The notes under the pieces: generated by a model
Seen by the model: only the letters and a program-made list of their open reading frames with translations
Databases searched by the model: none
What the model was told of the DNA's origin: nothing
DNA from: Methylocystaceae bacterium
GTDB lineage: Bacteria > Pseudomonadota > Alphaproteobacteria > Rhizobiales > Beijerinckiaceae
Direction of reading: 5' to 3'
NCBI GenBank assembly: GCA_014190435.1
Contig: BJGJ01000005.1
Location: forward strand, 1-64,000
Length of the DNA stretch: 64,000 bases
In this document: in pieces, positions 9,661 to 16,536 of the stretch
Numbering within the stretch: position 1 is the stretch's first letter
How the letters are laid out: the number at the start of each line of letters is the position of its first letter
Translations under genes and position numbers: made by a program

Positions 9661-10545
9661 TTAATTACAGATTTTTTGAATATTAATATCAAGACCCAAA
9701 TCCAAAACGGGGGCGGAATGTGTAAGTGCGCCTATTGAAATCAGGTCAACGCCTGTCTCAGCAACAGCTGCAACGGTTTCTAGAGATATTCCGCCAGAAG
9801 CCTCACATACAGCCTGTTTGTTTATGATTTTTACTGCTTCCGATAGCTGTGGAATACTCATATTATCAAGCATAATAGCGTCAGCCCCTTCACAGAGAGC
9901 TTCGCGTAATTGATCTAGCGTATCTACTTCTATTTCTATTTTAACGAGATGTCCGATTTTAGCTTTTGCAGCTCGTAGCGCCGAAGTTACGCTGCCAGCA
10001 ATTGCTATATGATTATCTTTTATGAGTATTGCATCATCTAAACCAAAGCGATGATTGACCCCGCCGCCGCATATGACGGCATATTTTTCTAAAGCACGTA
10101 GATTTGGTGTTGTTTTTCGTGTGTCGCATATTCTTGTATGGGTGTGCGCGATGAGGCTAACGTATTTGGCTGTTAATGTTGAAATTCCCGACAGATGACC
10201 CATAAAATTTAAGGCAACGCGTTCTGCCGCTAGGATGCTAGTCGCCAAACCTTTGATGCGCGCGATAATATCCCCAGATCTAACTAATGCCCCGTCCTCA
10301 TGTAAATTTTCATATAGTATTTCCGGGTCTATCACATTAAATGCTGCATAAGCTGCAGTTGTGCCGCATAATACGCCATTATTTCGAGCAACCACTAAAG
10401 CTTCGATTTTAATCTGATTATTAAAAACTGCTTCACTGGTTATGTCGCCTGCTCGACCAAGATCTTCAATTAATGCTTCTTTTATGCATTTTTCCAACAG
10501 AAGGTGGGGCGGCATAGGCATTTTCCTAGATACAAGAATTTGCAA
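9661..10545 (-). CDS. nadC: Nicotinate-nucleotide pyrophosphorylase (carboxylating)
   Basis: ALIEDLGRAGDITSEAVF, ERVALNFMGHLSGIST, TRKTTPNLRALEKYAVICGGGVNHRFGLDDAILIKDNHI, EASGGI. Confidence 0.96.
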   Translation of the reverse strand: MQILVSRKMPMPPHLLLEKCIKEALIEDLGRAGDITSEAVFNNQIKIEALVVARNNGVLCGTTAAYAAFNVIDPEILYENLHEDGALVRSGDIIARIKGLATSILAAERVALNFMGHLSGISTLTAKYVSLIAHTHTRICDTRKTTPNLRALEKYAVICGGGVNHRFGLDDAILIKDNHIAIAGSVTSALRAAKAKIGHLVKIEIEVDTLDQLREALCEGADAIMLDNMSIPQLSEAVKIINKQAVCEASGGISLETVAAVAETGVDLISIGALTHSAPVLDLGLDINIQKICN

Positions 10546-12064
10546 TATCTAAAACTTGATTAAGAGTTATTTTTGTTCGGCTGCCAAGCGTTGGATTTTC
10601 TTGCGGATAGTCATCTCTATAGTGAGCGCCACGACTTTCGCAGCGCTTTAAAGCGCTTGCAGCAATAAAAATAGCTGTAATAAGCATATTTTGAACTACA
10701 GGGGGCTTCTTCTTGTTGTAGAGCGTGGCGAAGCGTTTCAAAGCAAGACTAAGCCCTTGTTTATTTCTGATCACGCCAACATGATTACTCATGTTCTCGC
10801 GAATTTCAGTGATTATTGCTGAGCTTTGAATGTTTGGTGTATTTGATTTGGGTAAATTAACACCATAGTCAGAGCGAGCAATTTGACGCTTTTTTATATC
10901 GCTTGCTACCCGGTCAGCAAAAACAAGAGCCTCCAATAGAGAATTTGAGGCCAATCGATTTGCCCCATGAACGCCAGTAGAGGCTACTTCGCCGATTGCC
11001 CACATATGGTCAATTGATGTGCGGCCGCAGGCGTCCGTCAAAATCCCTCCCATATGATAGTGGGCGGCAGGCGCAATCGGTATGGGCTGATTTATTGGAT
11101 TAATCCCAGCAGCAATACAGCTCGCGTATACAGCGGGAAAACGAGTAGGGAAGTCTCTACCTATTTTTTCCCGCGCATCCAAAAAAGCGCCCGAGCCTTC
11201 TTGTATACTCTCATAAACCTTACGCGCGACAATATCTCTAGGCGCTAGCTCCGCTCTACTATCGCTGTCGATGAGGAAACGGTGACCAAACCGATTGATT
11301 ATCGTTGCGCCTTCTCCACGAAGAGACTCTGTCGCAAGTGGCGCTGGATCAGTATGAATATCGATCGCAGTTGGATGAAATTGAACAAATTCAGCATCCG
11401 CTATCACTGCTCCAACTTGCGCAGCCATAGCGACGCCGGCACCGCATGAGTCAAGAGGATTTGTTGTAAGACTATAGAGATGGCCTATGCCGCCTGTTGC
11501 TAAAATTAAACATGCGCACCGATACTCAATACTCTTCTCATCTGATGTTAAACAGAAAACGCTTAGAGAATGGCTGTTATGTTTCGATATTTTGTAGGCG
11601 GTGGCGCCCTCAATCACATTAATTGAAGGAGTGGCGTCTAATTTTTTCTTTAATGTCTCCATAATGGCTCGTCCGGCGCTATCGCCTTTGACCCGGACAA
11701 TGCGTCGATGTGAATGCGCAGCTTCCTGGGAGGGTAAAAACACTCCGTGTTTGGTGCGATCAAAAGGCGCGCCAAATTCTAGCAGTTCTTGAATCCTACT
11801 CCGAGCTTCCTGAGCCATTCCAAGAGCTATATTCTCGTCAACAAGTCCTGCTCCTGCTGCGATTGTATCAAAAGCATGTTTCTCGGGGCTGTCATCTTCC
11901 TCTACTGCAGCTGCGATACCGCCCTGAGCCCAATAAGAGGCACCGCTGGTTCCAACAGAACTTGGCGCTATTAACGTCACGGGAAGGGGGGCAAGTTTTA
12001 AGGCGCAGTATAATCCCGCAAGACCACCGCCTAGAATGATAATTGGCGTGGAAAAATTATTCAT
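10526..12064 (-). CDS. nadB: L-aspartate oxidase
   Basis: IILGGGLAGLYCALKLAP, YWAQGGIAAA, FVQFHPTAI, ESLRGEGATI, PAAHYHMGGILTDACGRTSIDHMWAIGEVASTGVHGANRLASNSLLEALVFA. Confidence 0.96.
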   Translation of the reverse strand: MNNFSTPIIILGGGLAGLYCALKLAPLPVTLIAPSSVGTSGASYWAQGGIAAAVEEDDSPEKHAFDTIAAGAGLVDENIALGMAQEARSRIQELLEFGAPFDRTKHGVFLPSQEAAHSHRRIVRVKGDSAGRAIMETLKKKLDATPSINVIEGATAYKISKHNSHSLSVFCLTSDEKSIEYRCACLILATGGIGHLYSLTTNPLDSCGAGVAMAAQVGAVIADAEFVQFHPTAIDIHTDPAPLATESLRGEGATIINRFGHRFLIDSDSRAELAPRDIVARKVYESIQEGSGAFLDAREKIGRDFPTRFPAVYASCIAAGINPINQPIPIAPAAHYHMGGILTDACGRTSIDHMWAIGEVASTGVHGANRLASNSLLEALVFADRVASDIKKRQIARSDYGVNLPKSNTPNIQSSAIITEIRENMSNHVGVIRNKQGLSLALKRFATLYNKKKPPVVQNMLITAIFIAASALKRCESRGAHYRDDYPQENPTLGSRTKITLNQVLDIANSCI

Positions 12065-12424
12065 AATGCAGGATCAATTCTCTTTTGGAGAGACAAATAA
12101 TTGCAACAAAGTGATCGGTTATAAGTAGTGATGAGAGATTAAAGCTATAAATATAATTATTGATTGATGGGCGAGTCATTGAGAATAAGTATTTCACATT
12201 AATATACTTTAATAAATTTGTTAGCGTTAAGAGTTTATGTGAGCGTTCCCCTTCAATAGAAATCTTGTGCCTAACAGATTTGAACGTAAAAAAAATAAAG
12301 AGTCTAATTGAGCTTGAAAAAATACGCATTGCTTGATCAGATGTTTTTATGTTGGCGATCATATTTTCACATACCAACATAGTTTTGAACCTTACCTAAA
12401 TAGGCGCCAAATCCAGACGCGCTA

Positions 12425-13534
12425 TTAGCCCAAATTAATCATGCGCTGGACGCTTTTTTTAGCTTTTTCAGCAATGATTGGATCAATAATAATCTCTTCT
12501 CTAATATAGAGTAGACTATCAAGTATCTTCGGTAAGGTAATGCGTTTCATATGTGGACATAGGTTACAGGGACGAACAAATTCAGTTCCAGTCGTCTCGG
12601 CTGCGACGTTATCCGCCATGGAACATTCTGTAACTAAAAGAACGCTTTTTGGTTTCTGCTTCTTCACATAATCAATCATTGCTGCTGTAGAACCAGAAAA
12701 ATCTGAAACCATAACAACTTCTTTTGGGCATTCCGGATGCGCGATCACAGTTAAACCAGGATGATCTAATCGATAATTCATAATTTCTTCTGCTGTAAAG
12801 CGCTCATGGACTTCGCAGGCGCCATTCCAGGGTATGATCTCAACGTCTGTTGAAGCGGCTACATTATCCGCCAAATGTCGATCTGGTAGTAAAATAACGC
12901 GCTTAACGCCAAGGCTTTCAACAACTCGAACAGCATTTGAGGAAGTACAGCATATATCAACCTCAGCTTTCACTTCCGCCGAGGTATTCACATAAGCAAT
13001 AATGGGCACGCCTGGATATTTTTTTCTTAAATAGCGAATATCTGAGGCAGTAATTGACGCTGCTAAAGAGCAACCTGCTTTTGTATCGGGCGTGAGGACA
13101 ACTTTTGACGGATTGAGTATCTTAGACGTCTCCGCCATAAAATGAACGCCGCCTTGAACAATGACGTCGGCTTGCGACTGGGCGGCCAATTTGGCTAGTT
13201 GTAAGCTGTCGCCGACATAATCTGCAACGCAATGAAAGATTTCTGGCGTTTGATAATTATGCGCCAAAATAACAGCATTTCTCTGAAGCTTTAATTCATT
13301 AATAGCTTTTATATAGGGTGCAAAGAGCGGCCACTCAAACTGTGGAATGACTTTAGAAACTTTTGGGTAGAGATGGGCCGTCGCTGCTTCGACTTCAGCT
13401 GTCCATGTTAAATCAGGTTTAGCAATAACAGAAAAACGGGACGCGGATTTAAAGCTGGGGCTGAGCGAGGCTTTAAACGTTGTGTCGCTATTAGCTTCAG
13501 GATAAAGATTCTGGACACCCATATTCCAGCCCAC
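12425..13534 (-). CDS. nadA: Quinolinate synthase
   Basis: [91 protein letters not shown]. Confidence 0.96.
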
Positions 13535-13542
13535 GCCTTAGA

Positions 13543-13561
13543 TATGCTCAAATTGAGCATA
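13543..13561. promoter_or_regulatory. Perfect 19-bp palindrome TATGCTCAA-A-TTGAGCATA upstream of nadA; candidate operator
   Basis: Exact 9-bp inverted repeat with a 1-nt centre, 9 bp before the annotated nadA start; minus strand overlaps a TATTAT -10-like hexamer. Confidence 0.7.
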
Positions 13562-13724
13562 ATAGGTTTATATAAAATCTCCGGTGCGAAGAATTCCACC
13601 CGGAGGCATCCATTCAGAATAGGGATCTCACAAGCCAATGGCAAGATGCATAAGACGACCCAAGACTACTGATTGAGATGTATGTCAACCGCTCCATCTT
13701 AAGGATAATGATTTTTCTGTCCGT

Positions 13725-13792: not shown

Positions 13793-14719
13793 ATGTTCGC
13801 GCACAGGCATTTACTCGGAATAGAGGGCTTGTCTCGACCCGATATTGAGACACTCCTTCAAATGTCAGATCAGGCAGTTGAGGTATCGCGGCGCATCAAT
13901 AAAAAACAATCCATTCTAAGCGGACGAACGCAAATAAATCTTTTTTATGAAGCCTCTACGCGGACACAAGCCTCATTTGAGCTTGCCGGAAAAAGACTTG
14001 GCGCTGACGTCATGAATATGTCTGTCGCCAGGTCTTCAGAAGCAAAAGGCGAAACACTTATCGATACAGCGATGACTCTCAATGCTATGCGTCCTGACAT
14101 CATAGTGGTTCGTCATTCTCAAGCTGGAGCAGCTAAATTATTGGCAAAGAAAGTTGATTGTTCTGTTGTTAACGCTGGTGATGGCGCTCACGAACATCCA
14201 ACCCAAGCTTTATTAGATGCTCTAACAATTCGACGGAATAAAAAGCGTATTGAAGGTCTAACAATTGCGATATGCGGAGATATTCTTCATTCACGCGTTG
14301 CGCGCTCGAATATCCTCTTGCTGTCAACACTGGGCGCTCATGTGCGCGTTATCGGCCCCTCAACGCTTGCGCCAGAGTCTTTTAGAAATATTGGCGTCGA
14401 GGTCTTTCACGATATGAAACGCGGTCTTCAAGGAGCCGATGTCGTGATGATGTTGAGATTACAAAAAGAACGCATGTCAGGAACACTCACGCCGAGCGCT
14501 AGAGAATATTTTCATTTCTATGGCTTAGACGAAGAAAAACTTAACTATGCTAAACCCGACGCTCTTGTTATGCACCCAGGTCCTATGAATCGCGGAGTTG
14601 AAATCGATTCAAGTGTTGCCGACGGAACGCGGTCCTTGATCCGGGAACAAGTTGAAATGGGTGTAGCCGTACGTATGGCGGTTCTTGAAGCCCTAACGCA
14701 TCATTTTCCAAATAGCTGA
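13793..14719 (+). CDS. pyrB: Aspartate carbamoyltransferase catalytic subunit
   Basis: [73 protein letters not shown]. Confidence 0.97.
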
Positions 14720-16127: not shown

Positions 16128-16536
16128 GAATCTCTCCTGTTATTCTCGTAGTTTTATAGATAAAACGCCCAATACCAGCCACAGCGTCAGCATAAAGCCC
16201 CGACTTATGAACTGAATAGCTAATTAGCATAAAATCAATTGTTTGCACCTTGATTATTTGTCGTCATTACTGCAAGGCGCGCCGCCAACTCACTCTTTTT
16301 ACTTGGTAACAGGGTTAAACGCATGAAAAAACATCCAAAAGGATTAGGCCCAATCTTTTAAGACGCAAAAAATAGACTTTCACCTATTCCTATTCTTGCT
16401 CTAAAAAACATAGATTTTCCAATGGATGCAAAAGGACTAAAATTACATCCGGTCGCCTTAGCTCAGTGGACAAGGATGTAAGGGCTGACTATAAGACACG
16501 CGTCAACTTAGGGTTGGCTTTCCCAGATATAGAAGG

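Follow-up and report, generated by a model that had tools for sequence, protein, structure and literature searches.

Our results indicate that the nadA gene of the analysed DNA, a 64-kb stretch hereafter called the window, is preceded by a predicted NadQ operator and, between the predicted promoter and this operator, by a GC hairpin with a T-run (13605-13573). Strong comparative support was obtained for the existence of the hairpin and the operator as one conserved layout. With our confidence evenly divided, we propose that the operator lies in the transcribed nadA leader, where bound NadQ would stall RNA polymerase and the hairpin would terminate transcription, and that release of NadQ would let nadA be read.

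The operator is located 8 bp from the nadA start, with nadB and nadC downstream, which together are the genes of de novo NAD synthesis; pyrB is the divergent neighbour. These genes were assigned as follows:

12425-13534, minus strand: nadA, quinolinate synthase, starting at GTG 13534 or ATG 13522 (TIGR00550, E 1.9e-93; NF006878, E 2.8e-103)
10526-12064, minus strand: nadB, L-aspartate oxidase (NF005701, E 3e-207)
9661-10545, minus strand: nadC, quinolinate phosphoribosyltransferase (TIGR00078, E 3.9e-98)
13793-14719, plus strand: pyrB, divergent neighbour of nadA (NF002032, E 6.2e-125)

The 360 bp separating nadB from nadA (12065-12424) contain no convincing gene; in the relative G001 this gap is occupied by a 206-aa gene, which was apparently lost in the window genome. 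Elsewhere in the window, positions of about 16450-16530 resemble the start of a tRNA (GCCTTAGCTCAGTGGACA), perhaps a remnant, and ARAGORN reported no tRNA there.

The site itself is the following:

13543-13561, minus strand: NadQ operator (O1), predicted from consensus match and conservation; a perfect 9-1-9 palindrome, at about +48 to +66 of the predicted nadA transcript

A preliminary description of this DNA had claimed a perfect 19-bp palindrome upstream of nadA, and TATGCTCAAATTGAGCATA is indeed a perfect 9-1-9 inverted repeat of that length. Such symmetry alone is weak evidence, because chance alone would yield about 0.3 perfect 9-1-9 palindromes per 64 kb; it is the match to the published NadQ motif, together with conservation, that lifts this predicted operator above chance. 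The consensus derived from a comparative study reads ttATRCTCannntGAGYATaa (PMC5343134), and the site agrees with all of its upper-case positions and with 20 of the 21 letters overall. A motif scan of the window yielded a single copy, in line with the earlier statement that the same palindrome is absent before nadB. The whole-genome scan that had been called for was run on the 2.16 Mb assembly, and only one further match to TATGCTCAAATTGAGCATA was obtained with up to 3 mismatches allowed, carrying all 3. Near-matches elsewhere in the genome were set aside as operators, the one common to G000 (the window genome) and G008 being coding sequence of a porin-like gene.

Among 36 same-genus relatives, the exact ATRCTCANNNTGAGYAT site was found in 27, and the reversed pattern, used as a control in the same genomes, gave 0 matches. 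All the exact sites in the genus are situated at nadA; the one extra copy, in G001, belongs to a second nadA-pyrB locus. With 1 mismatch allowed, at least one core match occurs anywhere in the genome in 37 of 39 genomes of the genus. Furthermore, among 83 further loci drawn mostly from Hyphomicrobiales, the 400 bp preceding the NadA match include a box with no more than 1 mismatch in 75. Since the consensus fits and the palindrome is conserved upstream of nadA through the genus and the order, the 13543-13561 palindrome is best read as a predicted NadQ operator, a further instance of a known operator type; NadQ represses de novo NAD synthesis. In PMC5343134, which treats alpha- and betaproteobacteria, the NadQ (COG4111) operator and regulon resemble the present case in palindrome sequence, in the target nadA heading nadABC, and in taxon.

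A protein encoded beside nadABC in Shinella resembles the solved NadQ structure 7q91 (E 7.5e-76), and relatives of this query were detected in 34 of 37 genomes of the genus. With the exact consensus fit and the nadA-linked conservation, this leaves the earlier suggestion of a NadQ-type operator well supported. The NrtR regulators of NAD metabolism share with NadQ the pathway and a related C-terminal winged-helix domain (PF21906), and differ in the effector domain. The absence of a regulator gene nearby, as previously described, was borne out in the window assembly, which is 66% complete: neither nadQ nor an NrtR-type winged-helix domain was found there, nor in the low-GC relatives G008 (98% complete) and G020. 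In relatives, nadQ sits within a conserved gene row; the G008 contig stops inside the HD-domain gene adjoining the expected nadQ place, the G020 contig stops inside a histidine kinase gene of the same neighbourhood, and no clear neighbours of the row were found in the 66%-complete G000. The lack of nadQ matches thus says nothing firm, because contigs end or neighbours are missing at the place of the gene. That the operator is a relic surviving in this low-GC subclade after loss of nadQ, as the missing matches in the three genomes might suggest, was therefore set aside and is given a very small probability; moreover, the palindrome is intact in G000, G008 and G020, differing across the three species only at its centre, while the surrounding intergenic region has diverged.

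As side observations on these genomes, the GC content of the fetched loci is about 42-45% in G000, G008 and G020, versus about 58-65% in the other congeners, and their assemblies measure 1.6-2.2 Mb (2.1 Mb at 98% completeness for G008), versus mostly 3-5 Mb in congeners, which makes them a possible case of genome reduction. Separately, G050 (loci L012 and L235) carries both box and hairpin at nadA, and nadQ was not found in its 96%-complete assembly.

Two features concern the initiation of transcription:

13616-13644, minus strand: predicted nadA promoter TTGCCA-17-TATTCT, with the start expected near 13609 (consensus scan 9/12; congener alignment)
13680-13688, minus strand: remnant (TTGACATAC) of a now decayed upstream promoter/second NadQ-like box, which alignment shows to be recognisable in most high-GC congeners

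The alignment of 30 genus sequences displays conserved TTGC and TANNCT blocks at the promoter place, a promoter-like element about 55 bp upstream of the operator, and, counted from the predicted start at about 13609, the operator would span about +48 to +66 and fall within the leader predicted to be transcribed. The preliminary description had read the palindrome as overlapping a TATTAT -10-like element and thereby blocking initiation. The hexamer is present, at 13564-13559; no -35 lies at the right distance, the six bases at that spacing forming a hairpin arm. Blocking by an operator placed on the -10 is consequently not supported, given that the promoter is predicted about 55 bp upstream and that the operator stands behind a terminator-like hairpin. 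Similarly, 16 Rhizobiaceae-type leaders carry a promoter-like element, TTGnnn-N16-18-TAARTC, ending 38-39 nt before the box core; at this spacing NadQ would not cover that -10, and the box would again lie in the transcribed leader. These predicted promoters would place the operator downstream of the transcription start, as a roadblock would require. Many relatives possess a second box upstream, near the upstream promoter, which is decayed in the window genome. In the set L013-L039, this second NadQ-like box is embedded in a CTTGAC promoter-like element, with about 118-124 nt from there down to the proximal box; most high-GC congeners have it, and G003, G013 and the low-GC species show it in degenerate form.

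The leader between the predicted promoter and the operator contains two further features, and the first of them was absent from the preliminary description of the site:

13579-13605, minus strand: leader hairpin CTCCGGGTGGAATTCTTCGCACCGGAG, with the box core beginning 18 nt after its 3' end (leader fold; genus and class conservation)
13573-13578, minus strand: T-run ATTTTA directly after the hairpin, a weak terminator tail (sequence)

The hairpin CTCCGGGTGGAATTCTTCGCACCGGAG is present in the minimum free energy structure of the 93-nt leader RNA (z -2.4 for the leader), a scan for terminator-like elements returned a shorter stem at the same place, and a hairpin occupies this place in 30 of the 30 genus sequences examined. 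The sequence features of an intrinsic terminator are present, namely a GC-rich stem-loop and a U-run directly after the stem, the latter weak in the window and stronger in many relatives. As pyrB is divergent, there is no upstream gene on the nadA strand that needs a terminator here. Leader attenuation, as in trp and riboswitches, is alike in that a biosynthetic operon has a terminator-like hairpin in its leader; however, no alternative antiterminator fold was identified in the nadA leader, the Rfam families offered no plausible match (only chance matches to microRNA families below gathering scores, or none), and the proposed switch is a DNA-bound repressor.

The distance from hairpin to box was then compared across alphaproteobacteria. 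RNAalifold on gapped MAFFT alignments gave no consensus fold, because loop lengths differ, and box-anchored counting of stems was used instead. Of 88 non-redundant nadA leaders, 50 carry a perfect stem of 5 bp or more whose end lies 17-19 nt ahead of the box core, versus 1.6 leaders expected from dinucleotide shuffles, and distances below 17 or above 20 nt are at background; several of the remaining leaders, including that of the window, have imperfect stems at the same place. An automatic best-hairpin search, noisier than the perfect-stem test, placed 71 of 111 at 17-19 nt. At the six positions after the stem, the T fraction in the 88 leaders is 0.51-0.83. Distant families of the class show this layout as well. 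The distance from the box to the nadA match ranges from 32 to 242 nt, and the fixed spacing is therefore tied to the hairpin and the box, and not to the gene.

The stems are represented by at least 13 distinct sequences (CCGGC, GCGGC, ACGGC, GCCCG, GTCCG, TCCGA and others), the partner arm changing to match. Among non-Watson-Crick stem pairs, 10 are G-U versus 1 A-C (p 0.012), an excess which points to pairing in the RNA of the nadA strand, unlike what a DNA palindrome would give. This bears on the idea that the GC palindrome is bound as DNA by a second protein beside NadQ, or supplies the -35 region to a promoter with its -10 (TATRCT) in the box. The box does begin with TATRCT, and 18 nt is near the normal spacing of -35 and -10; nonetheless, the stem sequences and the loop length (3-12) are too variable for a protein site, the mismatches favour G-U over A-C, and in both the window and the genus the hairpin is preceded by a promoter-like element, which together make this idea highly improbable. 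Better placed, though still improbable, is the view of the hairpin as a pause signal, at which polymerase would halt briefly before the operator and NadQ occupancy would be tested with the RNA kept. Fixed spacing and a small stem fit a hairpin pause, as do the few U residues of some tails (ATTTCTC, ATTTTA); conversely, terminators are usually marked by a T-run right after the stem, and several lineages have a strong one (TTTTTTT in L208 and L209), the run being weak in the window genome (ATTTTA) and in Bradyrhizobium-type leaders.

The coupling of hairpin and operator has its own counter-evidence. In the many relatives with a second box at the upstream promoter, ordinary repression of initiation would do, and the hairpin is missing from about a dozen leaders that carry a box, in which the -10 adjoins the box (e.g., L116, L205, L211 and L219); the hairpin is therefore not needed for NadQ control everywhere, and two layouts exist. 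These hairpin-less lineages and the box at the promoter of dual-box species, along with the description of NadQ as a repressor, would also suit an operator acting only by repression of initiation or by blocking elongation, next to a hairpin that is functionally independent of NadQ and serves as a separate element (a 5'-end stabiliser or a weak constitutive attenuator). We regard such independence as unlikely, although it deserves more weight than the pause, since it leaves unexplained why the hairpin keeps its 17-19 nt to the box while the box-to-gene distance varies widely, and why it is absent from most box-less leaders: 6 of 7 box-less nadA leaders lack a T-tailed stem by a loose criterion. 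In addition, the exact boxes outside nadA are without a hairpin in 3 of 3 cases.

Distances in the leader are consistent with the operator-coupled termination proposed above. Because the stem ends about 18 nt ahead of the box core, release at an intrinsic terminator would occur about 9-11 nt before the edge of the palindrome. When a DNA-bound protein blocks an elongating polymerase, the active site comes to rest roughly a dozen bp short of the obstacle. A NadQ-stalled polymerase would thus be on the U-run when the hairpin can form, and from this geometry we infer roadblock-assisted intrinsic termination. Transcription would start near 13609, yield the GC hairpin and the U-run, and then meet the operator, where bound NadQ would hold RNA polymerase such that the active site is at the U-run or just beyond it; the hairpin would form behind the stalled polymerase, and transcription would end. 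Once NadQ, which has been published as ATP-responsive, leaves, polymerase would pass the weak terminator and read nadA. From the sequence comparison, with its motif identity, conservation, upstream promoter-like blocks, fixed distance between hairpin/U-run and box, and absence of the hairpin from most box-less leaders, we infer NadQ binding at the site, the start site, the stall and the termination alike.

Repression of elongation by a roadblock is known for C.Kpn2I (PMC6237814) and LacI (PMC6593788), and as far as the available text of these reports goes, a DNA-bound protein downstream of the promoter stops polymerase, as in the proposed NadQ case; they differ in having no intrinsic terminator at the stall point, with Mfd-linked release or GreA-aided bypass instead. 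The available text of PMC5343134 covers the NadQ motif and regulon, and neither a hairpin nor a place of the operator in the transcribed leader appears in it. In the literature searched, whose scope did not include the 2022 NadQ paper (J Struct Biol 214:107917), neither a nadA hairpin nor the coupling of a terminator with a repressor roadblock was found described.

For alphaproteobacterial nadA operons in general, our proposal is more tentative, at somewhat short of an even chance: a weak intrinsic terminator in the leader would be switched on by NadQ bound at a fixed distance downstream, such that a DNA-binding sensor of the ATP/NAD state would control attenuation without an RNA switch. If true, repressor roadblock and intrinsic termination would be joined in one conserved device, with a hairpin-operator spacing set by the size of RNA polymerase, and a search rule would be suggested for other operators, namely terminator hairpins at a fixed distance upstream. 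NadQ regulation in rhizobia and other alphaproteobacteria would then be reread as repression after initiation, with short leader RNAs released.
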